Part shown: one piece after another, positions 28,075 through 50,164 of the stretch
Numbering within the stretch: the first letter of the stretch is position 1
Layout: every line of letters starts with the position of its first letter
From: a virus
DNA: 61,770 nt
Virus record (IMG/VR): IMGVR_UViG_3300017991_000117
Span: 1 to 61,770 of that record
Reading direction: 5' to 3' (one strand)
Program-made: the position numbers and the translations under genes
Notes under the pieces: model-generated
Database searches by the model: none
Told to the model about the DNA's origin: nothing
The model's input: the letters and a program-made list of their open reading frames with translations, nothing else

Positions 28075-28521
28075 TTAATCTTCCTCAGTTTCACCCAATG
28101 CTTTTAAACCTTCTTCTTCCATTTTTTTAAGTCTAGTATAATAATCGGGTATCTCATTTAAATGATCCAAGGAGATGCGTCGAGAAGTTTCCATATCATC
28201 TGTATGCTCGTATTCAACTTCTACCCCCATTGCTAACTCTTTAGGATCTACTTCATCTAGCCCAATACCAACTTCATTAGCCCGTCCTGTAGTCAAAAAA
28301 ATAACATATAATGTAGCCAATTCATAAATGTACTGTTCTATTTTGTCTACATCATACCCTTCTTCTTCACACCAATCGTGTACCTGATCATCCGTAGGAT
28401 TAGGGTTATCTTTAATAAATTCTATAATATCTCCGCGTACTTTATCATCAGATTTTTGCTGACCATAAAGAGATTTATAAATACGATGAAAACCTTGGTC
28501 CCTAATAGTTTTCATTACCAT
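28075..28521 (-). CDS. small acidic protein with shared N-terminal leader (family member)
   Basis: The 148-residue protein begins with MVMKTIRDQGFHRIYKSL, a diverged version of the (I/L)SDxxLxRIAxxL leader found in six other small proteins in this window. The rest is acidic and helical (DKIEQYIYELATLYVIFLTT, then EYEHTDDMETSRRISLDHL) and matches nothing recognised. The RBS (GGTGGAG) could serve either the first Met or Met3. It is encoded in the neck region, directly upstream of the terminator-like gene. The leader suggests that it is taken to the same place as the other family members. Confidence 0.65.
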   Translation of the reverse strand: MVMKTIRDQGFHRIYKSLYGQQKSDDKVRGDIIEFIKDNPNPTDDQVHDWCEEEGYDVDKIEQYIYELATLYVIFLTTGRANEVGIGLDEVDPKELAMGVEVEYEHTDDMETSRRISLDHLNEIPDYYTRLKKMEEEGLKALGETEED

Positions 28522-28533
28522 TATACTCCACCA

Positions 28534-28986
28534 TCACGTTTGATAAATTTCATCGTCATCAATAAATAAATCAACTGTACCAAATTTATCAGCAGCCGCA
28601 CTCAAAGCATCTCCAAAATCACCCCAATCACCATCCCAAAAACCCGCTCCATGCCCATTTCTAGTTAACCAAAAATCGTGTCCTGCTCTAGCTTCATCAT
28701 TTCCCGTAACTTCATATGCTTGAGAAAGGAGTTCCTCATTTTCCAACTGAAATTTAGAACAATCTTCTCGCATCTTATCAATAGTTTCACGATTTATATC
28801 ATCTATACTATAATTTTCATCCAAAGGAACACCACCACTTGGATCAGACTCATCATTTGTCGACCACAAGGCTGTTTCCATATATTGTTGAGTAAACTCA
28901 TCAATTTCCGGAATAACATAACCTTGTGCTACCTTAAGAACTCTATTAATTCTACCCATACCTGCATCTGAAATACCGCGTTTCAT
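28534..28986 (-). CDS. small acidic protein with shared N-terminal leader (family member)
   Basis: The 150-residue protein begins MKRGISDAGMGRINRVLKVA, then continues with unrelated acidic sequence ending in DLFIDDDEIYQT. The start has a strong RBS (GGAGG). A Gly/Trp/Asp-rich stretch near 113-130 (HGAGFWDGDWGDFGDAL) is unusual but not assignable. The gene lies between two other leader-bearing genes, giving a run of three. No catalytic motif is visible. Confidence 0.65.
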   Translation of the reverse strand: MKRGISDAGMGRINRVLKVAQGYVIPEIDEFTQQYMETALWSTNDESDPSGGVPLDENYSIDDINRETIDKMREDCSKFQLENEELLSQAYEVTGNDEARAGHDFWLTRNGHGAGFWDGDWGDFGDALSAAADKFGTVDLFIDDDEIYQT

Positions 28987-28987
28987 T

Positions 28988-29374
28988 TCATTCCTCCAAT
29001 CTCTTTAGCATCTGCGATAATGCATCTTGTTTATCATAAGGCCACACCCAAACTAAGTTATTATCCGCATCCAAAGTACTAAAATTAATATCAAAATAAT
29101 CTAAGCCCATTTCCAATAGCTGTCCGGCCCTCATTGGCTCTACAACAATATCCCTTTGCAATCTTGATCTCAAATCTTCTGCCGTATCCGAATCAGGAAC
29201 AAAGTATACTTCTCTTTCCCCATTAGGACCTGTTACTATGACTGAAAAACCTTCAGTATCTTCTATACTACCCGCAGATTCTTCCGATAATGATTGACCT
29301 TTTACAATTTTAGCCAACCTTTTAAAATCATTGGAAAATGCTTCCCCGAAACTTGTGTTCACGCTTCTCCCCAT
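28988..29374 (-). CDS. small acidic protein, diverged leader-family member
   Basis: I place the start at ATG 29374 because it has a clear RBS (AAAGGAAG) and avoids a 97-base overlap with the upstream gene; the longer frame to 29482 is unlikely. The resulting 128-residue protein starts MGRSVNTSFGEAFSNDFKRL and continues AKIVKGQ, where SNDFKRLAKIV aligns with the shared leader at an offset. The middle (GFSVIVTGPNGEREVYFVP) is a short beta region and the end is helical. Function is unknown. Confidence 0.6.
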   Translation of the reverse strand: MGRSVNTSFGEAFSNDFKRLAKIVKGQSLSEESAGSIEDTEGFSVIVTGPNGEREVYFVPDSDTAEDLRSRLQRDIVVEPMRAGQLLEMGLDYFDINFSTLDADNNLVWVWPYDKQDALSQMLKRLEE

Positions 29375-29385
29375 TTTTCTTCCTT

Positions 29386-30450
29386 TTACCAAACCAATGA
29401 AAATGGTCCTACTGGATCTACGTATCGTATATCCATTGTCTGTTGTACTATCACATAGGCAAAAGGATCTGAAGGTGACCAACTTGTAACCTTATATCTA
29501 GATCCTGTTTGCACACCATCTTTTATCTCAAACAAAACTTTATTATCTTTTACATATTCATCTTCAGACCCTATTTCAATTGTAGGATCAAATAAAGAAA
29601 ATCCCGCCGTCCACACTTTTAAATTATCTTGAACAGGCAAATCCGCGTGCTCACCCTTAGTATTCCTACTAATAGGAATTGAACGCATCAATAATACCCA
29701 AGGTCCAAATCTGTACTCTCCACAATCGGATTTTTCCGAATCTGCACCACCTAAAGCATCTCCAGAAGATAAATCAATCCTCGCATATCTTGCTCTAACT
29801 ATCTCAAATGCAGGAGTTATTATACTGGTGGTATCCCGCGTTAATGTAGCTTTAAACCTTATATTACCGGAAGAAGGATTTACTGTAGCGAGATTGTCTA
29901 TATCATCCCAAATAATACCGGAATCCAAAGAATATTCAACAACGACATTAGATTGTCCTTCAATACGGACAAATGATAAAGCCTGTGATTCCCAAGTAGA
30001 TCCAAAAGCTGTTCGACTAAATGATTTATCTCCTGATTCTATAGTACCTGAAGTAGAAGTAGAAGTTAAAACAACTTTCGCCGATTTGAAAGTCTTTGTT
30101 ATTTCAACTCCTGTAAGAGTTACATCAGAATCCGTAGCCGACATCCACACAGTATCATAACCAAATTTTAAATAACCAGGAACATACCTCTCACCATAGC
30201 AAGAGCCACATTTGGCGTCTGATTGCTTATTGGATTGTTTATAACAAGCGCATTCATTACCACTTTTGACGCCCATCCACATATCAGATCGGATTCCCCC
30301 CGCAAGAATCTGCTCTATCAACAATGCTCTTTGAGAGGCATGTTCCTGTTCTGCTTTTACATGTTTGAAAATATCACGAGACCAAGATCCTGTGGCCATA
30401 TGACCAAGACCTTCGCAACCATCCGCACCAAACCTACTCCAGCATACCAT
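29386..30450 (-). CDS. neck/head-closure structural protein with Cys cluster
   Basis: The 354-residue protein has an N-terminal Cys cluster, C67-x-C69 and C81-x2-C84 (NECACYKQ ... AKCGSCYG), that looks like a zinc site. It is followed by beta-rich sequence with an Ig-like stretch at about 105-215 and a C-terminal domain (NKVLFEIKDGVQTGSRYKVT). Small head-completion and neck proteins often lie here, between capsid and sheath genes, but this one matches no family I recognise. Its ATG overlaps the stop of the upstream 58-residue gene by one base (TAATG), a sign of coupled translation. Confidence 0.55.
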   Translation of the reverse strand: MVCWSRFGADGCEGLGHMATGSWSRDIFKHVKAEQEHASQRALLIEQILAGGIRSDMWMGVKSGNECACYKQSNKQSDAKCGSCYGERYVPGYLKFGYDTVWMSATDSDVTLTGVEITKTFKSAKVVLTSTSTSGTIESGDKSFSRTAFGSTWESQALSFVRIEGQSNVVVEYSLDSGIIWDDIDNLATVNPSSGNIRFKATLTRDTTSIITPAFEIVRARYARIDLSSGDALGGADSEKSDCGEYRFGPWVLLMRSIPISRNTKGEHADLPVQDNLKVWTAGFSLFDPTIEIGSEDEYVKDNKVLFEIKDGVQTGSRYKVTSWSPSDPFAYVIVQQTMDIRYVDPVGPFSLVW

Positions 30451-30626
30451 TATCTTCTCTCAAATGTTTCCTCTATAATCTCGTGTAAGCTTGTATTTTC
30501 ATAATCGGAATCTTCTAATTTAGCTTTAAAATCTTCCCATTTATCAGGATCTAATAAATTAATAAAAAATATATTATCATCTTCAGTATCATTATTTAAA
30601 TTAACTTTTTTATTGTTTATTATCAT
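30450..30626 (-). CDS. 58-residue acidic protein, unknown
   Basis: A short frame from ATG 30626 to TAA 30450 fills the gap between two real genes and ends in a one-base stop/start overlap with the next gene, the arrangement of translationally coupled phage genes. The product starts MIINNKKVNLNND and is acidic and helical, with LLDPDKWEDFKAKLEDSDYE in the middle. Codon use is AT-rich like its neighbours. The ribosome binding site is weak. Function unknown; coding status is likely but not certain. Confidence 0.55.
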   Translation of the reverse strand: MIINNKKVNLNNDTEDDNIFFINLLDPDKWEDFKAKLEDSDYENTSLHEIIEETFERR

Positions 30627-30639
30627 TAATAAAAATTAA

Positions 30640-30975
30640 TTACCAATTCATGGTTTGAGCAAGAATATAATCTTCCTCATTCATCCAATCAGGAACCTCT
30701 TTTAAAAGATCATCTGCCTCGTCTCCCTGAAAAAACCATCCGTCATCAGGATATTCAGGATTATCAATAGCTACATAAGGAAGACCTTGATTAATCTCCA
30801 CAGTCCAACCTTCAGCTCTGGCTGCTTCTGCACGTTGTTCATAATCTTTTGCCATATTTTTTATTCGTTCAGCTTTTTCAGGATCTCCACCAGCGGCTTC
30901 CATATAAATGTCTTCTTCAAATACTTGTGCTACTTTAGCAATCCTTTTGAAACCATTATCTGATATACTTTTCAT
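30640..30975 (-). CDS. small acidic protein with shared N-terminal leader (family member)
   Basis: The start is set at ATG 30975, which has an excellent RBS (AAGGAG) overlapping the stop of the preceding gene; the longer frame to 31077 would overlap that gene. The 111-residue product begins MKSISDNGFKRIAKVAQVFE, a close match to the shared leader, then runs into acidic helical sequence (AERIKNMAKDYEQRAEAARA) and a short C-terminal part (PDWMNEEDYILAQ). No known domain is seen. Confidence 0.7.
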   Translation of the reverse strand: MKSISDNGFKRIAKVAQVFEEDIYMEAAGGDPEKAERIKNMAKDYEQRAEAARAEGWTVEINQGLPYVAIDNPEYPDDGWFFQGDEADDLLKEVPDWMNEEDYILAQTMNW

Positions 30976-30979
30976 TTTT

Positions 30980-31225: not shown

Positions 31226-31246
31226 ATTTTCCCCCTAATTTTTCTA

Positions 31247-32146: not shown

Positions 32147-32151
32147 CGTAT

Positions 32152-32373
32152 TTAAAAAGAACTTAAATGAGTCTCCGATAAACTCTTTACTTTAGCCAGA
32201 AACTCCATGTACGCAGAATCCAACCCTTCTCGTACTTCCGCATCTAACCAAGACGGTAGATCTTCCCAAATAGGTTCAATTGCGGTATATAAACGAGAAG
32301 AAAGACCCTCCATAGTTTGTTGTGAATTTAAACTCTTAGCCACACGACGTAATCCCTTGTCAGAAATAGACAT
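32152..32373 (-). CDS. 73-residue protein with shared N-terminal leader (family member)
   Basis: It begins MSISDKGLRRVAKSLNSQQ, the cleanest copy of the leader seen in the window, followed by only about 55 residues of helical sequence (PIWEDLPSWLDAEVREGLDS). As the shortest members, this one and the 69-residue one define how little is needed beside the leader. It lies five bases downstream of the decoration-like gene's neighbour and just before the structural protein at 31247. No known function. Confidence 0.7.
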   Translation of the reverse strand: MSISDKGLRRVAKSLNSQQTMEGLSSRLYTAIEPIWEDLPSWLDAEVREGLDSAYMEFLAKVKSLSETHLSSF

Positions 32374-32384
32374 ATTTCACCTTC

Positions 32385-32765: not shown

Positions 32766-32766
32766 T

Positions 32767-33237
32767 TTATATGCTCCCGTCTGTTGCCCAATTTACACCA
32801 AAAGCTAGCCCCACTGCTAATAAACCACCAGTCAAAATACCTGCAATATAAATAAATGTCGGCGTTTTATACCAAGCATTCTTTTCTTTCAATCTATTTT
32901 CATATACTTCGCGTTCTTTTATTCTCAAATCATGCTCAGCTTCAAAAGACAATTTCCATTTATCACTTATCTTCTCAGTGACCTCTATATTAAGTTGTTT
33001 TAATTTTATAATCTCATCTTTTAATTTTAACTCTTCCTTCAATAAGGATATCTTCTCACGACTTATTTGTAATTCCTTAAGATCAATTAATACTCTCTTA
33101 CCAATATCTAAAGAAAAAAAATAGCCTTCAGTACCCTTATAATTTATAACCGCACGTTCTACTTTATCCGCGTAAGACACAAAAGTAAAACTAGTAATTA
33201 TTATACAAACTAATAAACTTTTTATGTTTAACAACAC
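32767..33237 (-). CDS. secreted/membrane coiled-coil protein (possible lysis protein)
   Basis: The 156-residue protein begins with a signal-peptide-like segment (MLLNIKSLLVCIIITSFTFV, then SYA before DK) and continues with a Lys/Glu coiled coil (about 55-115). It ends with a hydrophobic segment at about 125-148 (FIYIAGILTGGLLAVGLAFG). That topology would put the coiled coil in the periplasm, anchored at the C-terminus. It overlaps the spanin-like gene by one base, so the pair may work together at lysis. There is no lipobox, so it is not a classical o-spanin. Confidence 0.5.
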   Translation of the reverse strand: MLLNIKSLLVCIIITSFTFVSYADKVERAVINYKGTEGYFFSLDIGKRVLIDLKELQISREKISLLKEELKLKDEIIKLKQLNIEVTEKISDKWKLSFEAEHDLRIKEREVYENRLKEKNAWYKTPTFIYIAGILTGGLLAVGLAFGVNWATDGSI

Positions 33238-33590
33238 TAATAACCCATGTTTTCAAACTCTTTAAGAACCTCTTCGGGTTTCATACTTTTAATTTTCTCT
33301 TTCTCAATATTTAATTTATTATCTAACTTTTCTATTTTATTATTTATTTTAATAACTTCAGAAGTAATAAATCCTTCTTTTTCTTCTATAATCCTCTTCT
33401 CCGTATTTAAATTAGCTATTTCTGCTTGTACTCTGGCTATTTTAGCTTCTTTTCTAGCTATAAAAACTTCTTCACTATTTTTTCTTAATATAATATAACA
33501 AATAGAAACTATAACAGCTACCAAACCGGAAGCTATCCAAATAATATTTTTCTTAATCCAATTCCAAACTTTTTTCATCTTATATATCAC
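33237..33590 (-). CDS. Rz-like inner-membrane spanin candidate
   Basis: The 117-residue protein has one N-terminal transmembrane segment (about 18-36, IIWIASGLVAVIVSICYIIL) followed by a long charged coiled coil (about 45-105), which is the i-spanin (Rz) architecture. In Gram-negative phages such proteins pair with an outer-membrane partner to fuse the membranes at lysis. Its neighbours are a holin-like protein upstream and a periplasmic coiled-coil protein downstream. The Rz call is inference from architecture only, as these proteins share little sequence. Confidence 0.5.
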   Translation of the reverse strand: MIYKMKKVWNWIKKNIIWIASGLVAVIVSICYIILRKNSEEVFIARKEAKIARVQAEIANLNTEKRIIEEKEGFITSEVIKINNKIEKLDNKLNIEKEKIKSMKPEEVLKEFENMGY

Positions 33591-33796
33591 TTATAAACAT
33601 ATTCACTAACAATACGCATTAGCTCGTCTTCCGGTATACTCTGCAATATAACCTCTAAAAAAGCAGTATCACCCACTTCGTTCCTAATTTTTTCTACAAA
33701 GTTAAAAGAATCTTCAAAAATATTCTCCTGTCCTACCAACTTCAAACTACCGGCTATCCTACCTAAAGCATTGTCCGAAATACCTTTATTCAACAT
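33587..33796 (-). CDS. 69-residue protein with shared N-terminal leader (family member)
   Basis: The start is set at ATG 33796, which has an excellent RBS (AAAGGAG); an in-frame ATG at 33817 lies inside the holin-like gene. The product starts MLNKGISDNALGRIAGSLKL, matching the shared leader, and then has acidic sequence (VEKIRNEVGDTAFLEVILQS). It overlaps the holin-like gene by 11 bases and the spanin-like gene by four. Why a leader-family protein is inserted in a putative lysis group is unclear. Confidence 0.7.
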   Translation of the reverse strand: MLNKGISDNALGRIAGSLKLVGQENIFEDSFNFVEKIRNEVGDTAFLEVILQSIPEDELMRIVSEYVYK

Positions 33797-34133
33797 TTTG
33801 CTCTCCTTTAACAGCATTTTCTTTTTGTTTTAAAAACAATCGTAAAAATCTTTTAACAAATGGATATGTAGAACCAGAAACAGATCCGGCAATAATACCT
33901 AGAATAATAGATTGCGCGAGTACCTCCGTAATGCGTAATCCTGGTACAAAAGCCAGTACCATACCAAGTAAAAATGGCATAATAGTTATAACCAATTTAT
34001 AAAATTCATTTTTCTCCAATTTTGGATTAACTGTATCAACTACTTTACGAACAATAAATAGAATTATCCCCGTAAATAAAGATATCAACCAAAAATTTAA
34101 TCCTGTAAATACAGAAATTATCTCTAATTCCAT
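33786..34133 (-). CDS. holin-like multi-span membrane protein
   Basis: The 115-residue protein has three hydrophobic segments (about 9-29, 47-66 and 72-92) and a charged C-terminal tail (FLRLFLKQKENAVKGEQ). That size and topology are typical of class I holins, which permeabilise the inner membrane at lysis. It precedes a spanin-like gene. No endolysin gene is recognised in the window, so the lysis role remains tentative; other small membrane proteins could look the same. Confidence 0.5.
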   Translation of the reverse strand: MELEIISVFTGLNFWLISLFTGIILFIVRKVVDTVNPKLEKNEFYKLVITIMPFLLGMVLAFVPGLRITEVLAQSIILGIIAGSVSGSTYPFVKRFLRLFLKQKENAVKGEQNVE

Positions 34134-34143
34134 GTCCTACCTC

Positions 34144-35537: not shown

Positions 35538-35541
35538 GGGG

Positions 35542-35585: not shown

Positions 35586-36806
35586 TTACTTAACTCCCTT
35601 GGCCACAGCCTTACTATTGGCGCAACCGAAAGAAACCAATTCACAGAATGACCAACCCTTAACAGTTTCCATATTGGCGTACTTATTAAAGGGTTCGCTA
35701 AACAGATCCATTCGAATACCCATCTCACCAAAATACTCAGAAGCCGTACAGGCATAGAAAGTACCGGCCGGAATGACTTCCTCAACACCAATACCCGCAG
35801 CCGTAAGAATCTGAGCACTTAGGATATTCCCGATATGTCCAGCTAAAATCAACTCACGCTCAGTTACAGGATCAACAGCCGTTGACATCGTAGTAATAAT
35901 GTCAGAAAGCTCCGCACGATTAATGAAGAACTTCTCCACCATCAAACGATGCCGCTCAACTTGAAAACGAACAGCCTCAAAAGCTGCAATACCCAACGTG
36001 GCATAAGTCGTCACGGTGTTAATCGCGGTTGAAGCGGCATCCGCCAGAGCAATACCGAGTTTATCCTCCTGAAGCTCAATCTCTTGACGGGCAGTATCCT
36101 GCGCACGATCAAGAACATCAAAGTTCAGATGATAGATATCTGCGATATCCACGGTCGGAAAAGAGGTAATCTTGTCCTCTTTAGGGGTGATCCATTTGGA
36201 CTTAATCCTTGATTCCGGAGTCTGCCCGTCCTGACCAACAACCCAAGCAACCGAACGAACATCTACAGGAATACGGAAAAGTTCACCTTGAGCAACATCT
36301 CGCACTCTATACCACTTACGAGCAAAACCTTCGTAATCAAGAATTTGCTTAATAGGATATGCAAGCTCTTGCCCAACAACATGCCAACCCGCGTCAGATG
36401 TTCGATCAGTCAAAGCAGCTGCAAGAATTTCTCGACGCTGCTCCGGACTCATAGTCTGAGAGGGATCATCAGGATTGTATGGACGCAGGGAACTTGCTTC
36501 CTTAGACGTGGTATTAAGAAGCTGGCGAATCTGCACAAGTGCGTCTTTCGCGTCATCAGCGTTAATCTGTCCTTCTTTATTGAACATCTTATCGCCGACA
36601 GCTGCTTTCACATCACGCGGAGTATAGCTGTAACGCTGCGGATTATACTGTCCGTTCTCATCATACAGCTGCTCATCCTTACGAGAAGTCAACCGTTGCT
36701 TAGGACGCATGTGTACACGTCGTTGTTTGCCCTTAGTAGCTCTCCTAGCCGACGTAGAAGGGGCAGGACGATTACTATTACTGATGCTCTTATAGGGATT
36801 ACCCAT
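35586..36806 (-). CDS. major capsid protein (HK97 fold)
   Basis: The 406-residue protein follows the protease, scaffold and decoration-like genes and is followed by a strong terminator, the usual setting of the major capsid gene. It has a basic N-terminal arm (RRATKGKQRRVHMRPKQRL), then 'YDRIFRIPVD'-type P-domain features: 'ELFRIPVDVRSVAWVVGQDG', an E-loop region rich in charge (SRIKSKWITPKEDK), a long spine helix (RQEIELQEDKLGIALADAAS) and an A-domain end with 'FYACTASEYFGEMGIRMDLF'. It matches the general pattern of capsid proteins of SPO1-like and other large myoviruses. The RBS is strong (AAAGGAG). Confidence 0.85.
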   Translation of the reverse strand: MGNPYKSISNSNRPAPSTSARRATKGKQRRVHMRPKQRLTSRKDEQLYDENGQYNPQRYSYTPRDVKAAVGDKMFNKEGQINADDAKDALVQIRQLLNTTSKEASSLRPYNPDDPSQTMSPEQRREILAAALTDRTSDAGWHVVGQELAYPIKQILDYEGFARKWYRVRDVAQGELFRIPVDVRSVAWVVGQDGQTPESRIKSKWITPKEDKITSFPTVDIADIYHLNFDVLDRAQDTARQEIELQEDKLGIALADAASTAINTVTTYATLGIAAFEAVRFQVERHRLMVEKFFINRAELSDIITTMSTAVDPVTERELILAGHIGNILSAQILTAAGIGVEEVIPAGTFYACTASEYFGEMGIRMDLFSEPFNKYANMETVKGWSFCELVSFGCANSKAVAKGVK

Positions 36807-37627: not shown

Positions 37628-39694
37628 CTACTTACGCATATCTCCAAGTTGCCTGCCCAATTTAGTAGACGTAAGCGCGTTGCTAATTTCATCAAAATTT
37701 GTTTCATGAGGAATACTGACAGGTTCCTCTGTTTTCACATTAAAATTCCCAGAAGACAATTTTTCTCTCATACTTCTGGAATCTCTGCTCGCCACTACAT
37801 TATCATTCGTTTCCACTGGAGTAGGAAACAGTCCTTCAATATCTTTCTGTACATCATTCAGATAAGAATCATCCTTTTCCAAAAGATCCGCTGCTTTGGA
37901 TAAAAGATCTTCAACAAAGCTATCATGACCTTCTTGTGCAATAAGCTCAATCAATTCTACGGCTGTTCTCTGGTCCATTCCCGTATAGATTTCACCATCA
38001 GAAAATTCAACCGCACCTTCATTAGCCGCTAGAACATCAGCCATCGCAACTTTATAACTATTTGGATAATGATTTAACTTCATCCTAGCAGATGCAATCC
38101 GTACACATTTAGAAAACTTATGAGCAAACTTTTCAACTTGCTCTTGCACTAATTTCTCAGCACGAGCTTGATATAGTTTCTTATAGTTATCTTCTAATTC
38201 AGCTGTTTTGAAATCCACTTCAGCTTCATCCAAAGAAGACTCCTCCGGCTTATCCGGCTCCTCTTTAGTATCAGTATCCGACTCATCCGTAACACTCATA
38301 TCCCGAGCATCGCCAATACCTTCGGGCTTTTCCTCGGTAACAACTTCAATATCATCCTCGATACCGCCCAACTTCTTATAACGTGCTACCGTCTTCTCTT
38401 TGGATTTTCTCTCTTTAACTTTTTCTTTTAACGATACTTTAGTAACTGTTGGTTTCTCCTCAGTATCTGTATCCATTTCCTTCAACACATCAGATTCGCC
38501 CTTATCCAGCTCTTCTCTAGAATCCGTATCGCCGCCCCCAGTAACAGGCTCATCCACTGGAAGGACTTCACCACCTGTAGTCTCTATATCTTCATCCACT
38601 CCCGCTTTAAGCAAACGGGAACCGCATAACTCAGCGGCTTTACTCCAACCATCACGTATAATAACGCTCTTAACCTTATTAGCTAATTTAGCCAAAGCCT
38701 TTTTATCCGCTTTAACTTTCTTATTAGTAAGACCGAAAAACATGGGGCCATGATCTTCATGGTGCGCAGCTATGTTCCCTTCTTTCGTAATCACAATTTT
38801 AGATTTCTTAGCCCGAATGAGTTGTTCTCTATCCAAACCCATCTCATCCACCGTAGGCATTTTCTTATCTTCTTCTTTCAATTCCCTAAGCTTTTTCATT
38901 TTATCTTCTTTATCATCCTCGTCCTTATCCTTATCCAGCTTAGGTTTATCTTTATCCTTTTTATCCCTATCCTTTTCGTCTTCTTCCTCTTCCGCCAGCA
39001 TGGGTGGAGTACTAACAGGAGGTGGCGTTGACATATCCTGTACCGCTTGAGCAGACTTAATCCGGGCCAAAGCAATAATATATTTACGAGCCTTACCCAT
39101 TAACTTCTTTACTTCATCCTCATCACGATCTTCAGATTTTTCATCAATCTTCTTTAAATCTTTTACCTTCTTCTCTAGTCCTTCTTCCTCTTTCTTTTCC
39201 TTCTTCTCTTCCTTTATTTCTTCCTTCTCTTCTTTCTCTTCTTTCTTATCTTCTTCACCCAAAATTAATTTAGCTGCACTCATTATTTTCTTAAGTTCTT
39301 CTTTATCGCCTTTTTCTAATTCTTCTTCCTTACCTTCCAACTCCTCAAGAATTCCTTCTAGTTCTCCTGCACCTTCTTCAATATCTTTTTTCTTATCAAT
39401 TTCTTTTAACTCCTCTTTAGCTTCGCCCTTATCCTCTTTAGAAAGCATTCCCTTTTCCTTCATAAACTCCACCATAAGATCAAATGCTTCTTCAGGATCT
39501 TCAACATTCCGCAACTTAGCCAAGCAACCTTCAAAGTCCTCTGGCATTTTAACTGCACTACGCCGAAACATAGACTTCCGAATTAAATCTTGTGTCTGAC
39601 TTTCAATAACACTTCGATCAGACGCGCTTAATTCGATATCTCCGCGATTGAATATATCTGCTACAGTCCTAAATAGTTCGATTTTATGATCCAT
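37628..39694 (-). CDS. prohead scaffold/core protein, very Lys/Glu-rich
   Basis: I set the start at ATG 39694 (MDHKIELFRTVADIF), which has an AGGAG site eight bases upstream; the longer frame to 39730 overlaps the protease gene and lacks an RBS. The 688-residue product has long Lys/Glu runs (about residues 90-300) of extreme charge and predicted coiled coil, then a folded region (about 545-620, with 'KFAHKFSKCVRIASARMKLN'). Scaffold proteins are typically charged, helical and removed by the prohead protease, whose gene is directly upstream. It is unusually long for a scaffold, so it may carry an extra fused domain. Confidence 0.75.
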   Translation of the reverse strand: MDHKIELFRTVADIFNRGDIELSASDRSVIESQTQDLIRKSMFRRSAVKMPEDFEGCLAKLRNVEDPEEAFDLMVEFMKEKGMLSKEDKGEAKEELKEIDKKKDIEEGAGELEGILEELEGKEEELEKGDKEELKKIMSAAKLILGEEDKKEEKEEKEEIKEEKKEKKEEEGLEKKVKDLKKIDEKSEDRDEDEVKKLMGKARKYIIALARIKSAQAVQDMSTPPPVSTPPMLAEEEEDEKDRDKKDKDKPKLDKDKDEDDKEDKMKKLRELKEEDKKMPTVDEMGLDREQLIRAKKSKIVITKEGNIAAHHEDHGPMFFGLTNKKVKADKKALAKLANKVKSVIIRDGWSKAAELCGSRLLKAGVDEDIETTGGEVLPVDEPVTGGGDTDSREELDKGESDVLKEMDTDTEEKPTVTKVSLKEKVKERKSKEKTVARYKKLGGIEDDIEVVTEEKPEGIGDARDMSVTDESDTDTKEEPDKPEESSLDEAEVDFKTAELEDNYKKLYQARAEKLVQEQVEKFAHKFSKCVRIASARMKLNHYPNSYKVAMADVLAANEGAVEFSDGEIYTGMDQRTAVELIELIAQEGHDSFVEDLLSKAADLLEKDDSYLNDVQKDIEGLFPTPVETNDNVVASRDSRSMREKLSSGNFNVKTEEPVSIPHETNFDEISNALTSTKLGRQLGDMRK

Positions 39695-39710
39695 CTTCGG
39701 TGCTCCTATG

Positions 39711-40619
39711 TTACCGAGGTTGAAGTGCATGATTCAGTATACTAGCCACCGACCCGGGAATGGTTTCGGCATGCTTAACTACAAAATTTGCGATTTCTTG
39801 CAAATCGTTTTTATTAAAATTCTTATTACTGGCCGCTAAACTAAGAATATCATCTTGAATTTCAGCCGTCTCATCAGCCGGGTCATCAACCGCAGAAATC
39901 TCTTGGAAAATAGTTCCCATACACTTTTCCCAAGCCAACCGCATTGATCCATCTTTAGCCTTAAGCGGCATTCTGGCATGTTTTCCACGGACGCATTTAC
40001 ATAATTCAAAATCTGTAGTAGCTACGTTGCCGCATACTGCGCACTCCGTAGCAACAACATCACAACCCATAGAAAATTTTCTTACAGATCCACTCTTATA
40101 CGCACTAGCAAGAGCTGGATCTTTTGTAGTATCTACGCCAATAAGCAACTCTACAAAAACGTCCCGATCAACGTCTTTACCCAAAGCCTCTTTAACTGCT
40201 CTTTTAACAGTGTCATCAGCAGCATTCTGAGTATTGAGATGGCTATCTAATATAACACCACGACTTAATTTAAGATCGGAAGCATTATGGTTAACAAAAT
40301 GAGGCTTTAAGTTATAAGTCTTATAAACTTGACTAGCAATTATATCATCAAACCGCTCTAATTCAGCTTGTTCCCAACCATCCAAATTATTATTTGGACG
40401 GTCAGCACTATTTGCCCGAGCAGGAATAAAAATATAATCCCTTGGATCTCTACTTATAACGTAAGCATCCGCAACAGAATCTAATGCAGCCTCAACATTC
40501 ATATTCACTCCATCTTCCATATAAAAAGATGAAATTTTTGATGAAGCAGATTTAGATCTGGACCATGAACCATTATGTCGGAAACCTAATGGCTCCCACT
40601 GTGATATTTTTCTGAACAT
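39711..40619 (-). CDS. prohead maturation protease (U35/S78-like)
   Basis: The 302-residue protein has the pattern of phage prohead serine proteases: His at 107 or 111 in 'KPHFVNHNASDLKLSRGVIL', a Ser at 183 in 'VRKFSMGCDV', and 'FQEISAVDDPADETA' at 238-252 (the 'E(L/I)SxVDxPAxxxA' end typical of this family). A zinc-like cluster C193-x2-C196 ... C207-x-C209 is inserted after the Ser motif, as in some large-phage relatives. It would cleave scaffold, capsid arms and any leader peptides during maturation. It is followed by the scaffold gene, as expected. Confidence 0.82.
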   Translation of the reverse strand: MFRKISQWEPLGFRHNGSWSRSKSASSKISSFYMEDGVNMNVEAALDSVADAYVISRDPRDYIFIPARANSADRPNNNLDGWEQAELERFDDIIASQVYKTYNLKPHFVNHNASDLKLSRGVILDSHLNTQNAADDTVKRAVKEALGKDVDRDVFVELLIGVDTTKDPALASAYKSGSVRKFSMGCDVVATECAVCGNVATTDFELCKCVRGKHARMPLKAKDGSMRLAWEKCMGTIFQEISAVDDPADETAEIQDDILSLAASNKNFNKNDLQEIANFVVKHAETIPGSVASILNHALQPR

Positions 40620-41144: not shown

Positions 41145-42131
41145 TCACGTTATTAGTGCTCTTGTTTCAGCATCCCAATAATGATTATCGTATCTTATAA
41201 CCTCTTTACCATCTAAATAATAAGTTTCTAAATCATTTTTATTTATATCTGCGTCCAAAAACGAATCTAGCTCTTTTGCCTTACCAAACTCACGAACAAA
41301 TACATCAGGTCCATATCCATACACATAGCCATTATGAACGTACAAAACATCGTCTTCTTCATCATATACGACAACTTCATCAGCTTCAATACCGGTAATA
41401 TCTCCATAAAAAATATTAGTAAATTTTATTTTATTATACGACAAATTTACGAGTAGATTTATAAAATTTTTGTTTTTAAATTCTAAAGGAAAATCTACTA
41501 TAACTTTTCCCGAAATATTAATCTCTTTCACATCCAAATTCCCGAGCAAAGGTCCACTATATACCTCGCGAAAAATAACCGGAAAATAATCACAAGAACA
41601 ATGTGCGTGTGATATTGTATCTCCATCTAAAAGAACATTTAATATATAATTAGTATCAAAAATACAACCGTTATAAGCATTACAAACCGGACACAATCCA
41701 GAAGATTTAAACATAACTTGATGGATACCCATATCCAAAAAAGCTTTTGTCCTAGCTATAGAGCACAAAGCAAAATAATCATTCACGTTGGACATAGCAA
41801 ATTCCAAAATATTTATATCGCTATCATCCATAATTAAGTCTTTAGCGCTTAAAGCAACCCCCTTCATAAGGGTGGACTTAATAGACAAAAAATCAAATAT
41901 TTTAAAAGCTTTTTTCTTGCTATTTAAGAATATTTCATAATACTTATCAGGCTTAATTATAATTTTATCCGAAATAAATTTATCAAGATCGTTTTCTAAA
42001 ACAGGGCCATTAGCAAGTGATAGGATAGTTTTCTTATCAAACACATTTTTTTTAATTAACTTTTCACTAGACTTTTTTAGTAAAGCTGCGGAACCATCGC
42101 CAACAAAAAAAGAATCAAAATCCTCACTCAC
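41145..42131 (-). CDS. MuF/SPP1 gp7-like minor head protein
   Basis: The 328-residue protein directly follows the portal and shares one base with it, the standard MuF position. It carries the Cys/His pattern of the MuF C-terminal domain: 'SIARTKAFLDMG' (about 124-135), C147-x2-C150, C156 and 'SHAHCSC' at 174-180, giving a probable zinc-bound core. A helical N-terminus (about 1-110) would bind the portal. The C-terminal 140 residues form an extra domain (VVYDEEDDVLYVHNGYVYGY). MuF-type proteins are minor head proteins thought to sit near the portal and enter with the DNA. Confidence 0.75.
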   Translation of the reverse strand: MSEDFDSFFVGDGSAALLKKSSEKLIKKNVFDKKTILSLANGPVLENDLDKFISDKIIIKPDKYYEIFLNSKKKAFKIFDFLSIKSTLMKGVALSAKDLIMDDSDINILEFAMSNVNDYFALCSIARTKAFLDMGIHQVMFKSSGLCPVCNAYNGCIFDTNYILNVLLDGDTISHAHCSCDYFPVIFREVYSGPLLGNLDVKEINISGKVIVDFPLEFKNKNFINLLVNLSYNKIKFTNIFYGDITGIEADEVVVYDEEDDVLYVHNGYVYGYGPDVFVREFGKAKELDSFLDADINKNDLETYYLDGKEVIRYDNHYWDAETRALIT

Positions 42132-43900
42132 TATTCTACTCCCATAGGCATTGCACCCTCAGAAGGTGCTTCAATACTTTCTTCAGGTGTCCCAGCTTCC
42201 CCGCTACCTGGTGCTCCTGGACCTGTAGGCTTAGCAGCATTCGGAGGTTTAGCTGCCCCTCCAGCTGGCTTAGGAGCCCCTCCCGGGGGAGCAGCTCCCG
42301 GCTTAGGCATCGTAGTTTCTTGCTTATACTGCTGTGCTAACTCTGTTCCCAACGTTTTGTCAATAATCTCTTTTTTCTCTTTCCATTCCACTGCTTTGTT
42401 CTTCGTTTCTGCCTTCCAATCAAGACCTAAAACAGAACCAACAGTAGACTGGGAAACATCAAATCCCAATTTTTCCATTTGTAAAAGAGCTTGTAGCAAA
42501 TCACTGTCAACAGAAGGATCTAACTTATTTTTCCATTGTAATTTCGGCATAATAAGCAAATTCTCATCCGATAGTTCCTGTGCAGTTCTCTTCTTTCTAT
42601 ATCCACCTGCTATTTCTTTTGGACTAGATTTATACCAACCGTTCACAATAGCTATCGGCCTTATAAATTTTGGATAAATCCAAACACTCTCAAAATATTG
42701 CCTCAAGGACAGAAGACGACGAAGAAAAACTTGAAGACCGCCTTTCACACTGCTAAATGAAACCTCTCCCGTCATAAAGCCTTTAGACAATCCAAGAGCT
42801 GTTAGCTTTACTTTTTCGATAACATCATGCTCACCACGAATTGAAATAGCTCGATCAGTAGTCCCCCAAGCTTCAAAATTTATACCATAATCCCAACAAA
42901 GCCATGCATTCGGATCAACCTCACATCTACTCAGCATAGCTAATAACTCCGTTTCCCTTTCAGGATCAGGAATCCACTGTGTAGCAGCATCACCAAGTTT
43001 AATAACTTTAATCGGACTCGCATGACGCCTATAAGTGGCAATAGTGCTGTTATATACAGCGTCCTCCACCATCCAAATACGCCATAATCTTGATGCCATA
43101 GAAGTACCACGACTATCATAGGGTGATAGTCTCCGAGCAATGAAAGAACAATTACTAGACTCCAATTTAATTGGTTGTCTCGCTAAAACGCGGCTAACAA
43201 ATTCAGATGGCAATGAAGTTCTTAATTTAATAGAGTCTGGAGATCTGTCGGACAAAAGCTTAATTAGCTCCTCATCGGGTTGCAAATATATAATAGGGTC
43301 CATATTTATAATGGGAGAATCTTTTACCTCTATATTATCCGGATTGTGTAAAGCTATATAATCCCAGATACCCAAATCTTCGTTGAAAAAACAATGAGGG
43401 AAAACTTCACCAAGTACTAAATACTCCCTCACCATTTGTTTCAGTCGATCAAGAAAATCAACCTTCTCGCACATTAAATTAATAGTATTTTTTATATCCT
43501 CTTTATCCCCGTCTTCTACTTGAACTTCAAACGAGCTAACAAGCATCTCACTGTACATATCCATCGCCATGCCAAACATGGGATCTAATTTTTGGAATAA
43601 TCTCCAATAAGAATTGGCCGTCCTACGATCAATCGGATACTGCATCCGATCAGGGCTTTCAATTTCTGGCAGGTACGGCCTTTGCATATGATTAAGTACT
43701 TGACCACCACCTCCACCACCATATGTAGTTTGCATAGTACCTGGATTAAAAGTTCCCATACGTGGAGGTAGAGGATTCAAAGTACCACCGATCTTAGCCA
43801 CATCATCTCTAACAACTTCCCTCTGCATAGATCTTGGATTAGTAGATATAATGCGCGGTTTAAAAGAATTAGCCCTTTTTTTAAATTCATCTTTATCCAT
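42131..43900 (-). CDS. portal protein
   Basis: The 589-residue protein lies next to a MuF-like gene and upstream of the protease, as expected for the portal. It contains 'RRTANSYWRLFQKLDPMFG', 'LKQMVREYLVLGEVFPHCFF' and 'DSRGTSMASRLWRIWMVEDAVYNS', features of the wing and stem regions of large-myovirus portals. A Pro/Gly/Ala-rich tail (about residues 530-589) follows. It forms the dodecameric vertex through which DNA is packaged. TerL lies about 14 kb upstream, with a block of fibre genes between. Confidence 0.85.
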   Translation of the reverse strand: MDKDEFKKRANSFKPRIISTNPRSMQREVVRDDVAKIGGTLNPLPPRMGTFNPGTMQTTYGGGGGGQVLNHMQRPYLPEIESPDRMQYPIDRRTANSYWRLFQKLDPMFGMAMDMYSEMLVSSFEVQVEDGDKEDIKNTINLMCEKVDFLDRLKQMVREYLVLGEVFPHCFFNEDLGIWDYIALHNPDNIEVKDSPIINMDPIIYLQPDEELIKLLSDRSPDSIKLRTSLPSEFVSRVLARQPIKLESSNCSFIARRLSPYDSRGTSMASRLWRIWMVEDAVYNSTIATYRRHASPIKVIKLGDAATQWIPDPERETELLAMLSRCEVDPNAWLCWDYGINFEAWGTTDRAISIRGEHDVIEKVKLTALGLSKGFMTGEVSFSSVKGGLQVFLRRLLSLRQYFESVWIYPKFIRPIAIVNGWYKSSPKEIAGGYRKKRTAQELSDENLLIMPKLQWKNKLDPSVDSDLLQALLQMEKLGFDVSQSTVGSVLGLDWKAETKNKAVEWKEKKEIIDKTLGTELAQQYKQETTMPKPGAAPPGGAPKPAGGAAKPPNAAKPTGPGAPGSGEAGTPEESIEAPSEGAMPMGVE

Positions 43901-43903
43901 CTA

Positions 43904-44437: not shown

Positions 44438-44503
44438 TTTTAATTACCTCTTTAAAGTTTTTATTATAATATACTTTTTAAAAAACATAGACTTATTAGA
44501 ACT

Positions 44504-46522: not shown

Positions 46523-46534
46523 ATTAAATCCTTC

Positions 46535-47974
46535 CTACAAACTAACAGGTTCACCTAAAACAATTACGATTGTACGACTAGAACCTGATCCTGTATCCAA
46601 CGAATATCCTACTCTCTGGGATTCCCCCGACGTAGGAGCTGTACTCGTAACTTCACCATCTGTACCAGACATATAAACAACTTGTCCGACAGTCCAAGCT
46701 CCAACATCCGACGTAAGAACAGTGGATTTACCAGAACTTTTAATACTTACAGAAGCACCGCCAGCTACTCCAGTTTGAGCTACGCCAACAACAAAATTCT
46801 GATTTGCCGTGTCTTTATTAGCCTTAACAATTTTTCCGGTGGCTGATCCATCATCGGCAGACACAATATCGTATTGGGTAATAGCTTCATCCGCTGTATC
46901 CGACCACACGCCAACATCAGTTATCTCGCCCTTAAGCTCGTTAAGACCACCTATAATAGAAGTCGCAGTAAAACCACTTAAAGAAGTGTCCCCCGCTTCA
47001 TTCAACGTTATAGTAGCCGCACGAGCACCTAAAGTAAGATCAGCAGCCGCTCCAGAAACAGTAAAATTGGACGCACTGGTAGCGTCCAAAGCAATGTCAA
47101 TTCCGTCAACATCAACAGAATTAGCATTACCATTAATTGTTACCCCGCCAACACCATTCAAAGTAATTACACCTGCTAATGTAGCGGTTAAAGTTAAATT
47201 CGTATTCACCGTAGTCCACGTAGAAGCAGCAGCCGCATTCAAAGCAATACCCGCTGATGTATCTAAATTAATAGTAGAAGCATCAATATCAACAGAAAGA
47301 TCATTTGCGCCACCTCTCAAAAATTTAGCATGATCTGTACCATTCAGCACCTGAAAACCGTCTGCTCCCGTACCGGGAATAGCAGATAAATCAACTGTAA
47401 AAGAGTAATCACCAGTAAGATTCCAAATAGTATCATAAGCATCTACAGTAATCGTAGCCCCGTTATTATAACCGTCGTCCAAATCCCAGGTAGATGCCGC
47501 CGCAGTAGACCAAGAAGCCCCATTCCACCATTGCAAATCATTAGATCCATCTATTCTTATGGCTCCAGTTTCACCCACAGAACTACTAGGAAGAACCAGC
47601 ACACCCGTACCAGTTACCCTTTCAAAACGCACATCAATTGCAACCAACACAGATAGATCACACTTTAAAGAGGCAGAATCGCTACTACCGCCACCAATAG
47701 ATATAGAGTCTCCAGAATTATCACCAAGAGTGACATTACCATTAAAAGTAGCACCACCCGTAACAGTTTCCGCACCGTCAACAGCTAAATCGCCTAAAAC
47801 TCTAGTTATTCTTCCTACAGTACCTAACTTTAGCTCTCCGGTACCATTGGCAAGAACCAATAAATCTAAATCCGTGGTATTAGGTTGAACAACACCAACA
47901 TATAAAGTGTCTGTTTCAGCAACCCTAGTATACTTTCCACTATTTAACGTAATTGGATTTCCACTTGCAGACAT
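46535..47974 (-). CDS. fibre-like virion protein B, shares N-terminus with neighbour
   Basis: The 479-residue protein begins MSASGNPITLNSGKYTRVAE, the same leader as the next gene, and continues with a different beta body of repeated triplets ('DIALDATSASNFTVSGAAAD', 'TWTTVNTNLTLTA'). Its C-terminal 120 residues share a module with two other fibre genes in this block: 'VKANKDTANQNFVVGVAQTG', then 'GQVVYMSGTDGEVTSTAPTS', then 'QRVGYSL'. It is likely to be a trimeric fibre. Confidence 0.6.
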   Translation of the reverse strand: MSASGNPITLNSGKYTRVAETDTLYVGVVQPNTTDLDLLVLANGTGELKLGTVGRITRVLGDLAVDGAETVTGGATFNGNVTLGDNSGDSISIGGGSSDSASLKCDLSVLVAIDVRFERVTGTGVLVLPSSSVGETGAIRIDGSNDLQWWNGASWSTAAASTWDLDDGYNNGATITVDAYDTIWNLTGDYSFTVDLSAIPGTGADGFQVLNGTDHAKFLRGGANDLSVDIDASTINLDTSAGIALNAAAASTWTTVNTNLTLTATLAGVITLNGVGGVTINGNANSVDVDGIDIALDATSASNFTVSGAAADLTLGARAATITLNEAGDTSLSGFTATSIIGGLNELKGEITDVGVWSDTADEAITQYDIVSADDGSATGKIVKANKDTANQNFVVGVAQTGVAGGASVSIKSSGKSTVLTSDVGAWTVGQVVYMSGTDGEVTSTAPTSGESQRVGYSLDTGSGSSRTIVIVLGEPVSL

Positions 47975-48304
47975 TTAAACCCCCCTAACTTTTTTATCTA
48001 GATTTTTTATATTTTTCTTTTTGCCTAAAATTCTGCCTTTAACACGAGAAGACTTTTCTTCCATAAATAATTTATTCCTAGCAACCCAAGGTTCCCCATT
48101 AATAAAAATAGGAGGTGGCACATAGTTTTCTAAAGCTTTTTTCATTCTTAGATCTTCAACCTCTAAAATCTCTCCCGGCTCTATAATAAATTCTTCTTTT
48201 TTTCCGTCTTCCGTAGGCAATCTAATCTTTATCTTAGAACCTGTACCATCCCAGTCTTTAGCAAATACCGACATTTTATCAGAGACTTTAAACTTCGTAC
48301 CCAT
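47975..48304 (-). CDS. small protein between fibre genes, unknown
   Basis: The 109-residue protein starts MGTKFKVSDKMSVFAKDWDG and is basic at its C-terminus (RILGKKKNIKNLDKKVRG). A beta N-terminus with 'EEFIIEPGEILEVEDLRMKK' is seen. Lying between two fibre genes, it might be a chaperone or connector; no family is recognised. Confidence 0.5.
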   Translation of the reverse strand: MGTKFKVSDKMSVFAKDWDGTGSKIKIRLPTEDGKKEEFIIEPGEILEVEDLRMKKALENYVPPPIFINGEPWVARNKLFMEEKSSRVKGRILGKKKNIKNLDKKVRGV

Positions 48305-48313
48305 TGATAAACC

Positions 48314-48982
48314 TCAATTAAATAAAGGTTCTCCGAAAGAGAACGCAAAAGTTGTGGCATTCTTTACATATCCAACAGATTGAGATATAGTTCCCGCCGC
48401 TGTAACGGGTGTTGCAGTTATTGCACCGTCAACACCTAAAAAATATTGCGTTCCTGGGGTTAAAGCTGCAAAACCGCCAATTATAACATCCTTGGAAATA
48501 TAACAAGTAGTGCCCGTAGGTTTATTATATACTACAGATAAAGCAGGTCCAAAATTAGCCCCCGCAGCATTAGATGCAAATTTAACAGTATCTGCAACAG
48601 TATCTATCTGAACCACATCACCGACAGCAACACCCAACGGACAATTATATAAGCCCATGCCACTGCCAACAAGAAGATTATAACTCACTCCAGTATCATC
48701 AGTATACCACAAAGAAAAACCCGGACCTCCTGTGTTGTCTACCCATACCGTAGGATCTCCTGGAGTACCCGGATTAGCGGCTTTACCCAATGGATCAAAA
48801 GACACACCACCAAGACCAATACAAGGATCGTTGTCTATACCAAGTTTTGCCTCAATGTTTTCGATTGCTTCATATCCACTGTTTTGGTGATCTACGATCA
48901 CCTCATCAACGCCATCAAGAAGACGAGGAAGAAAACTATCTAAAGAAGTAGGATAAACACTGCCGCCATAAACTGTAGTCAT
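48314..48982 (-). CDS. fibre-like protein with 'PTSLDSF' N-terminal domain
   Basis: I place the start at ATG 48982 (MTTVYGGSVYPTSLDSFLPR), because the segment 'YPTSLDSF ... DHQNSGYEAIENIEAKLG' is the start domain of many phage fibre proteins; the longer frame from TTG 49012 adds ten residues and cannot be excluded. The 222-residue product ends with the 'ALTPGTQYFLGVDGAITATP' module shared with two other fibre genes. It is likely to be a short fibre or collar/whisker-type appendage. Confidence 0.6.
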   Translation of the reverse strand: MTTVYGGSVYPTSLDSFLPRLLDGVDEVIVDHQNSGYEAIENIEAKLGIDNDPCIGLGGVSFDPLGKAANPGTPGDPTVWVDNTGGPGFSLWYTDDTGVSYNLLVGSGMGLYNCPLGVAVGDVVQIDTVADTVKFASNAAGANFGPALSVVYNKPTGTTCYISKDVIIGGFAALTPGTQYFLGVDGAITATPVTAAGTISQSVGYVKNATTFAFSFGEPLFN

Positions 48983-49149
48983 ATTCTCACCATTCCATAC
49001 ATAGGCATACAAGTACCTAGTAGAATTCTAATTTAAGTCTAACATGTAATCTCGTAGGGAATTTTAAATATAGTACTATATAGTAAGGAATATAAGCTCA
49101 GTACGGCATTAACTATAACATAAAAAAATAAAAAATATATCTCAGTATA

Positions 49150-49177
49150 TTGACAGCTTAAAAAAGTGTATTATATT
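49150..49177 (+). promoter_or_regulatory. sigma70-like promoter for the 60-residue plus-strand gene
   Basis: TTGACA (49150-49155), a 16-base spacer and TATATT (49172-49177) lie upstream of the RBS AAGGAG (49189-49194) and ATG 49201. The same block, from ATCTCAGTATATTGACAG to the RBS, recurs before the next plus-strand gene. Confidence 0.8.
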
Positions 49178-49200
49178 TTATATAACACAAGGAGAAAACA

Positions 49201-49383
49201 ATGAAAATCAGAAAAACAGAAACATTGAAAAAAGAAAAATACACCTTCAAAATATATAGAGAAGGCCAATACTGGTATGCAGATATTCACAGAAAAAACG
49301 AAGAAACCTGCACTAGAAAATGGGGATGTACCACAACAAAAAAGAAAATTTTAGAGTATATTAATCACTTTTGCAAAAAATAA
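49201..49383 (+). CDS. 60-residue basic protein on the opposite strand, unknown
   Basis: It is one of only two plus-strand genes. The product (MKIRKTETLKKEKYTFKIYR ...) is Lys-rich, with 'YTFKIYREGQYWYADIHRK' at the start and 'TKKKILEYINHFCKK' at the end, a small alpha/beta protein. It has a consensus promoter and strong RBS, so it is expressed independently of the late operon, perhaps early in infection. No family is recognised. Such small basic proteins in phages often bind host proteins, but this is only a general expectation. Confidence 0.75.
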   Translation: MKIRKTETLKKEKYTFKIYREGQYWYADIHRKNEETCTRKWGCTTTKKKILEYINHFCKK

Positions 49384-49401
49384 AAAACATATCTCAGTAT
49401 A

Positions 49402-49430
49402 TTGACAGCTTAAAAATTAAGTACTATGTT
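49402..49430 (+). promoter_or_regulatory. sigma70-like promoter for the gp46-like gene
   Basis: TTGACA (49402-49407), a 17-base spacer and TATGTT (49425-49430) precede RBS AAGGAG (49441-49446) and ATG 49454. It is a near copy of the promoter block 252 bases upstream. Confidence 0.8.
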
Positions 49431-49453
49431 TTATTTAACAAAGGAGAAAAACA

Positions 49454-49780
49454 ATGAAAAAAATAACCAGCATAGATGAAGTCCGCATCGCAAACCAAGA
49501 CGTGGCAAACGCTGTTCTTATTAGAATCACAACAAAACGAGGATCTGTTCCAGGAATGCCTTGGTTTGGATCTAGACTACATACTATTACTACGCTTGGA
49601 GATTGTCATACTAGAGTAATAGAAGGTTTTCTTCTGGAAGCTGTAGCTGATTTGGTTAGTGAAAATAAGATCAAAGATGTTTCTGCCACTGCATTTATAG
49701 AAAACTACAAATTTAATTGGGAACTATCTTGGGTAGACTGCACTGATGGTCAAAAACACCTCTTAGTATCGCCAGAATAA
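49454..49780 (+). CDS. Mu gp46-like (gp25-related) protein on the opposite strand
   Basis: The 108-residue protein has the plan of Mu gp46/gp25-type wedge proteins: 'DVANAVLIRITTKRGSVPGM', then 'WFGSRLHTITTL', then a helix 'FLLEAVADLVSENKIKDVSA' and a final strand 'WELSWVD'. In those families this domain is a baseplate wedge. Here it is isolated from the baseplate genes, lies on the other strand and has its own promoter. It may therefore be a co-opted gp46-like domain with a different role, or a second wedge protein expressed at another time. It converges on the KTSC gene, six bases apart, with no terminator visible between them. Confidence 0.6.
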   Translation: MKKITSIDEVRIANQDVANAVLIRITTKRGSVPGMPWFGSRLHTITTLGDCHTRVIEGFLLEAVADLVSENKIKDVSATAFIENYKFNWELSWVDCTDGQKHLLVSPE

Positions 49781-49786
49781 AAAGCG

Positions 49787-50164
49787 CTACTCCAACCTCT
49801 CGTACTCATACCTATCTCGTAAATTAGTCCATATAAATTGACCTTTAGACGGTGCAGCAAAAAACTGATCAAACACTTCGGGCTCAACATTATAATAACC
49901 GTATAAAGATTCTGGCCTGTTTCCTTTGGCTAAAAATCTTACATACAAAATTTGGTTATCATCGTCATACCCAAATTCTTTTACATTAGAACTTTCAACA
50001 GGATACATCGTTGGAAACTGATCACCAGTTTCCTCCTCTACAACCTGCTCCGCATCCTCTACAAACTGCTCTTCTTCATACAAAGGTGTTTCATATTCCT
50101 GTTGAGCCATTTTATAACCTACTGTTGAAGCAATACGCTCCAATGCTGAATCAGATAAACTCAT
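49787..50164 (-). CDS. KTSC-domain protein with shared N-terminal leader (family member)
   Basis: The 125-residue protein begins MSLSDSALERIASTVGYKMA, matching the shared leader, then has an acidic linker (about 20-50). Residues from about 55 to 123 fit the KTSC domain: 'VESSNVKEFGYDDDNQILYV', 'SLYGYYNVEPEVFDQFFAAPSKGQFI' in two parts, and 'LRDRYEYERL'. KTSC domains occur alone or fused to other domains in phages and bacteria, with no settled function. This is the only leader-family member with a domain that I can name, and it shows that the leader is a separate, portable piece. Confidence 0.75.
   Translation of the reverse strand: MSLSDSALERIASTVGYKMAQQEYETPLYEEEQFVEDAEQVVEEETGDQFPTMYPVESSNVKEFGYDDDNQILYVRFLAKGNRPESLYGYYNVEPEVFDQFFAAPSKGQFIWTNLRDRYEYERLE

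Follow-up and report, generated by a model that had tools for sequence, protein, structure and literature searches.

A shared N-terminal leader on unrelated small proteins of one phage capsid lineage, a candidate address for loading the virion

Why should a series of small phage proteins with unrelated bodies begin with the same short peptide? The question is raised by a 61,770-nucleotide stretch of viral DNA (IMG/VR record IMGVR_UViG_3300017991_000117, positions 1 to 61,770; the whole of this stretch is referred to here as the window), in which an initial annotation had noted a common N-terminal leader on seven proteins. Our analysis indicates that this leader is probably a prohead or virion address peptide, which loads early-acting proteins for injection with the DNA. 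All seven open reading frames were found where they had been placed, on the minus strand. Contigs and records of related phages are cited by our handles. The proteins and their leaders are as follows:

28075..28521, minus strand: leader protein with a DUF5661 body, 148 amino acids (aa) (Pfam DUF5661, E 4.2e-18)
28456..28521, minus strand: its leader, (M)VMKTIRDQGFHRIYKSLYGQQ, at the N-terminus
28534..28986, minus strand: leader protein with a phrog_1915 body, 150 aa; a leader-bearing homologue is present in relative G003
28924..28986, minus strand: its leader, MKRGISDAGMGRINRVLKVAQ
28988..29374, minus strand: partial-leader protein, 128 aa, body without known family
29294..29374, minus strand: its offset, partial leader, (MGRSVNTSFGEAFSND)FKRLAKIVKGQ
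30640..30975, minus strand: leader protein, 111 aa; the body resembles the C-terminal half of a leaderless G002 protein
30916..30975, minus strand: its leader, MKSISDNGFKRIAKVAQVFE
32152..32373, minus strand: leader protein, 73 aa, body without known family
32320..32373, minus strand: its leader, MSISDKGLRRVAKSLNSQ
33587..33796, minus strand: leader protein, 69 aa
33728..33796, minus strand: its leader, MLNKGISDNALGRIAGSLKLVGQ
49787..50164, minus strand: leader protein with a KTSC body, 125 aa
50102..50164, minus strand: its leader, MSLSDSALERIASTVGYKMAQ

The leader in the window and in related phages

Six of the 57 window proteins match the strict pattern [ILVM][STR][DN]..[LFMIV].R[IVL] within residues 1–24, and the set, 19,581 residues in total, contains no internal match; residue-shuffled window proteins gave on average 0.017 N-terminal matches and at most 1 (2,000 trials). 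The seventh protein (28988-29374), initially counted with the others, is without the ISD half of the leader and has only FKRLAKIVKGQ, 16 residues in. This offset element does not seem to be noise, since the same second half is conserved in other leaders (RVAKIIKGQ, RIAKSVTGQ, RVAKTVKGQ). The short consensus originally proposed captured a real motif, but not its full length. When 65 leader proteins are anchored on the invariant arginine, the consensus reads M[KR]L[KRQ]G[IL][STP]Dx[GA][LIVM]xR[IV]A and is often extended by xx[VIL]K[GA]Q[EGD], giving a leader of ~20 residues with a mean net charge of +2.3. It comprises a short basic segment, a turn with an N-cap and an amphipathic helix. As already claimed, the window bodies following the leader show no mutual similarity, and the 65 proteins represent 58 unrelated body clusters.

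The window matches the 170,099-base contig IMGVR_UViG_3300018080_000001 (G001), with 100% identity across the genes for portal, terminase and KTSC protein, and G001 contains four further leader genes at 6.8–9.5 kb, outside the window (MKARGISDEGLKRVANVVKAQE, MKAKGISDAGLKRVAKIIKGQE, MSISDKGMKRIAQALDK and MKLKGLSTEGIEKLAKIITAQG). Codon agreement at identical leader residues of G001 is 0.39, which equals the 0.40 expected from codon usage; thus, it is the peptide rather than the DNA that is conserved, and the earlier notion of selection on a peptide with varying codons holds. In other phages, leader codons agree slightly above expectation (G005: 0.43 vs. 0.36), which points to some recent exchange via the leader.

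A profile search of related phages, suggested in the initial annotation, was performed as a held-out test, in which six other phage contigs or records were searched with a hidden Markov model (HMM) built from the window's six leaders only. The 22 new matches with the highest scores, located in G001, G003, G005 and G006, were all N-terminal leaders and ranked before the first false match, while reversed-protein controls remained below 8 bits; the leader is therefore recovered in three related contigs (G003, G005 and G006). For a wider set, 80 neighbourhoods were retrieved by means of the capsid protein, and the leader profile was iterated. In around a dozen related contigs, all 67 matches of at least 12 bits begin no more than six codons from a start codon, compared with 8% of random positions having an ATG that close; as the iterated profile was trained on its own matches, the unbiased part of this result is the held-out test. 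The leader was counted 17 times in G003, 12 times within 21 kb of L072, 11 times in G005 and 10 times in G001 (plus the offset copy), and a single phage may possess up to ~18 kinds of cargo.

Outside these phages the leader was not encountered. Two degenerate DNA leader patterns gave 0 matches in 257 gigabases of prokaryote genomes, and three leader patterns matched, within IMG/VR, only contigs of the same capsid lineage. A tblastn search of 50,697 phage records with the consensus found none, the 24-residue query being insensitive. A common helix motif occurring outside phage heads, the possibility named at the outset as fatal to the idea, was not seen with the strict DNA patterns in prokaryote genomes. 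We found no earlier description of the leader in the open-access literature.

Leaders differ between lineages even on the same cargo. A 290-residue cargo family begins with MRLPGITDQALHRISRKV- in G005, MKFFLDNSNYKRIAEVL- in L083 and MKFFLNDKNYKKIAEAL- in G002, the adjoining ParB-like cargo with MKFFLNNSNYKRIAEVV- in L083 and MKLTIFDLDFNKIAM- in G002, and the DUF5661 leader reads MSIHGLFVKFDKIADKVVEQEE in G004 and MRLNMKRLARVIRANG in G003. Identical cargo equipped with the lineage's own leader form is what would be expected if leader and acceptor co-evolve. The tag also appears modular, since homologous bodies are leaderless in some relatives: the KTSC domain of G003 and G005 is without leader and fused to the neighbouring protein of the 50166 type. 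That neighbour (50166-51560) retains its N-terminus MITLQDAI.RAEL in G002, G003 and G005, and the remainder diverges. Comparing the gene content of leader-rich and leader-poor relatives, we observed no dedicated receptor gene emerging. A generic comparison of N-terminal pairs in the Rctr197k relative revealed no alternative leader, the comparison being noisy from repetitive protein families. Leader-like segments were also detected inside two fused proteins, i.e., MKLGGITNQGIRRISRRM following DUF5661 in L072:19793-20524 and GNGVRRIAEAL ahead of a ParB-like domain in L060:6186-7463; judging by their sequences, these look as if leader-bearing genes had fused.

Cargo and gene placement

Leader proteins are mostly short and single-domain (median 129 aa, up to ~450 residues), and their bodies are strongly acidic, with a mean charge of −15 per 100 residues vs. 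−2.2 for other small window genes (P = 3e-5). One cargo is encoded by L065:15739-16503, which consists of the leader and an ArdA domain (Pfam E 5.8e-34, PHROG antirestriction E 8.9e-41) beginning at residue 28, directly after the leader; the gene is situated between those for capsid and tail. As an inhibitor of restriction enzymes, ArdA is of use at DNA entry. Packaging of this protein is suggested because a late-made antirestriction protein helps the next infection only if it is packaged.

The other recognizable bodies comprise DUF5661 (three members), DUF5662, KTSC, a ParB-like domain and a PcrA-tudor-like domain. Of these, DUF5661 is linked to the prohead core by gp14 of Vibrio phage vB_VpaM_VPs20 (L149:4341-5606), where DUF2213 is fused to DUF5661 in a gene situated between those for the large terminase and a DUF2184 protein. 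DUF2213 proteins are among the fold matches of the window protease, and this fusion with a head-protease-type domain thus points to the head. In Rctr197k (146011-152130; L036/L037), DUF5661 forms part of a 2,052-residue polyvalent-like protein along with inorganic pyrophosphatase and DUF7178 domains, an arrangement reported for polyvalent proteins packaged in virions (PMC5512222). The phrog_1915 body of 28534-28986 has a homologue whose gene belongs to the terminal repeat of Caulobacter phage CcrBL9, a location that suggests early action. Scanning the cargo with PADLOC and NCBIfam returned weak single matches only. A PHROG match to an McrBC inhibitor (E 2.7e-4) was weak and not assignable to a member, and was not used.

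The head genes and further features that bear on the leader are located as follows:

35586..36806, minus strand: major capsid protein (assignment from position and conservation), the lineage of which sets where the leader occurs
37628..39730, minus strand: scaffold-like core protein, candidate docking partner, with a likely start ATG near 39694
39711..40619, minus strand: prohead (head maturation) protease, candidate leader peptidase (phrog_18299, E 1.3e-29)
42131..43900, minus strand: portal protein, resembling the portal of Bacillus phage G and others
24293-26752 of the window: sheath-like protein gene, in the leader-bearing lineage
32767-33237 of the window: protein with signal peptide and coiled coil (lysis-like cassette)
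33237-33590 of the window: protein with transmembrane segment and coiled coil (lysis-like cassette)
33786-34133 of the window: holin-like protein (lysis-like cassette)

The leader genes are found in a few variable slots between conserved genes of a syntenic module extending from the capsid gene to the sheath, among head, lysis-like and tail genes, and their number varies. G006 has leader genes with bodies unrelated to those of the window in two slots: the slot equivalent to 32152-32373 contains a leader gene with a different body, and that equivalent to 33587-33796 encodes MKLRGIPDTGMERIAR.. followed by a tudor-like body. The lysis-like cassette (32767-34133), which consists of three small membrane proteins, is itself placed within the virion module with leader genes around it. 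In Rctr197k and distant relatives, the scaffold-like core protein is fused to the protease.

Head protease and a proposed route into the virion

The presence of a prohead protease, assumed from the beginning, was confirmed by the family match of 39711-40619 and by its predicted fold (mean predicted local distance difference test score, pLDDT, 78), which matches annotated prohead proteases in BFVD; Foldseek against the PDB gave nothing significant. Just after the leader helix, [AG]Q is present in 42 of the 65 leader proteins vs. 5 of 65 in a control window, and AQ alone occurs 34 times at the leader end vs. 3.8 expected. Giant-phage proteases cut after A-X-E and the T4 protease after L/I-X-E (PMC10052503; PMC9026906). 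Judged by sequence, [AG]Q may be a cleavage site related to, yet distinct from, both; this is a prediction. VGQE of the major capsid protein was considered as a propeptide site and dropped, as VGQ.L is conserved in leader-free relatives and lies at the start of the capsid fold.

We infer packaging, a docking partner, cleavage and injection in the following way. The leader helix would recruit small acidic cargo of an early-acting (anti-restriction or host-takeover) type to the assembling prohead, probably by docking on the scaffold or core or on the inner capsid surface. The prohead protease may then cut near the leader end, at the enriched [AG]Q, releasing the cargo, which would be packaged and later injected along with the DNA. 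That the proteins are capsid cargo taken in via the leader, as put forward in the initial annotation, is the best-supported explanation, with packaging, partner and cleavage as its conjectural parts. Independent support comes from the ArdA cargo, the insertion of leader genes in the head/tail module, the DUF5661-DUF2213 fusion, the lineage-specific leader variants and the restriction to one capsid lineage.

Several observations weigh against this explanation. The phages are uncultured and the leader proteins are known here from genes alone. The cargoes are acidic, whereas T4 internal proteins are basic. [AG]Q is absent in around one third of the members, and A-X-E, the motif of other proteases (PMC10052503), fits only some of them. 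Clusters of leader genes also occur outside the structural module (G001, 6.8–9.5 kb; G003, 11–14 kb; G005, 164–170 kb). Finally, a fold test of the 290-residue cargo of L083, G002 and G005 gave a mean pLDDT of 45, i.e., low model confidence; the label ADP-ribosyltransferase-like that had been considered for this family comes from a reading of the sequence only.

A broader form of the packaging explanation, which we put forward tentatively and consider somewhat doubtful, is that of a one-address delivery system, where any gene that gains the local leader would be turned into injected cargo, leader and acceptor co-evolve, the capsid protein and the protease dock through a similar motif at their N-termini ([LIVMFY]-x-[KR]-[ILVT]-[AS]) and the protease cuts after [AG]Q. 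The N-terminus of the capsid protein reads NPY[KR][KR][IVL][AS] and that of the protease MxFxK[TIV][AS]. The pattern [LIVMFYW]-x-[KR]-[ILVTM]-[AS] is N-terminal in 41% of capsid protein homologues and 64% of protease homologues, compared with 15% for the portal, 0–4% for other virion genes and a background of 1.3%. It is a lead and not evidence, since only two independent families are involved and the pattern was chosen afterwards.

Alternative explanations and related systems

The leader could dock cargo on another virion part, such as the tail tube lumen, the baseplate or the capsid exterior. Contractile injection systems take up cargo with N-terminal signals, the leader-bearing lineage has the sheath-like gene, leader genes are positioned between head and tail genes and not solely beside head genes, and the indications of delivery (ArdA, early-type cargo) fit this location equally. 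Yet, cargo of up to ~450 residues and ~18 kinds per phage is hard to fit into a tail tube, the DUF5661-DUF2213 fusion points to the head, and the similar short N-terminal motif is found in the capsid protein and protease, not in tail proteins; we therefore regard this option as improbable. We give about the same low credence to an interaction or regulatory tag acting within the infected cell (on a host chaperone, the membrane, a polymerase or a phage compartment, or as a degron) rather than in packaging. Amphipathic helices serve generically for docking and some leader genes are outside the structural module, both of which suit such a tag, but it leaves unexplained why ArdA is found within the virion module, why the leader is tied to a single capsid lineage, why identical cargo has different variants in different lineages and why DUF5661 is fused to a head-protease-type protein.

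Less probable still is a functionless peptide, left as a relic of duplication with fast divergence or maintained as a DNA recombination hotspot. Leader genes do stand in tandem, and the codon agreement of G005 shows that exchange through the leader occurs; in the window phage, however, agreement equals expectation, and the peptide is conserved while its codons are not. Divergence from a single ancestor is excluded because the bodies are members of known families that are unrelated to one another (ArdA, KTSC, DUF5661, DUF5662).

Packaging via the leader has its closest parallel in the capsid-targeting sequence (CTS) of T4, a conserved targeting sequence on otherwise highly diverse defence proteins (PMC3012670). 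As with T4 internal proteins I–III (IPI-III), a short N-terminal leader is shared by divergent small proteins, antirestriction cargo is included and a prohead protease is present (PMC3012670; PMC9026906). We detected no similarity to the T4 leaders (ipI/II/III: MKTFKEF/MKTYQEF; MKTYQEFIAEA) beyond MK and a likely helix. The T4 leader has 10 residues and basic cargo, in contrast to ~20 residues, acidic cargo and up to ~18 cargo genes per phage in another capsid lineage, known from genes. As the sequence is unrelated and T4 internal proteins are basic, we class the leader as CTS-like in its working and keep it outside the T4 family. In phage P1, an N-terminal signal directs antirestriction proteins into the head, and 30 N-terminal residues of DarB are sufficient for packaging (PMC9024508); the N-terminal signal (<30 residues) and antirestriction cargo are comparable, with packaging predicted in the present case, but Dar proteins are without common consensus, while here one consensus is found on dozens of proteins. 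Gp45 and gp225 of SPN3US have N-terminal propeptides of 20–24 residues removed by the prohead protease (PMC10052503). There the cut follows A-X-E, whereas the dipeptide enriched here is [AG]Q, with a following E in some of the proteins only. Polyvalent proteins of phages and conjugative elements also combine predicted virion-packaged, early-acting domains, with ArdA and ParB-like domains in both systems (PMC5512222). In contrast to these, most of the present cargoes are small individual proteins with one domain and a leader of their own, and multidomain architecture is not typical, being seen in only a few G005 proteins. The initial suggestion of an undescribed targeting system is thus correct as to the sequence, which is new and unrelated to the T4 CTS, but not as to the principle, which is known from T4 and P1.

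Should the leader prove to be a packaging signal, sequence alone would reveal which effectors are injected throughout an entire phage lineage, a prediction usually impossible in uncultured phages, and dozens of uncharacterised small proteins would become candidates for antirestriction, anti-defence or host-takeover functions. Capsid targeting by leaders would then have arisen independently of T4 and be usable at much larger scale, and the leader would provide a compact tag to load foreign proteins into phage heads.

Two further features were noted in the relatives. G002 (L029-L030, ~78–88 kb) encodes a tandem family of short proteins starting with MKNLKKEIRDKVVDQVWVQ, apparently repeat-built, and the Rctr197k relative contains annotated CRISPR arrays (L036:10803-12317 and 19281-19535).

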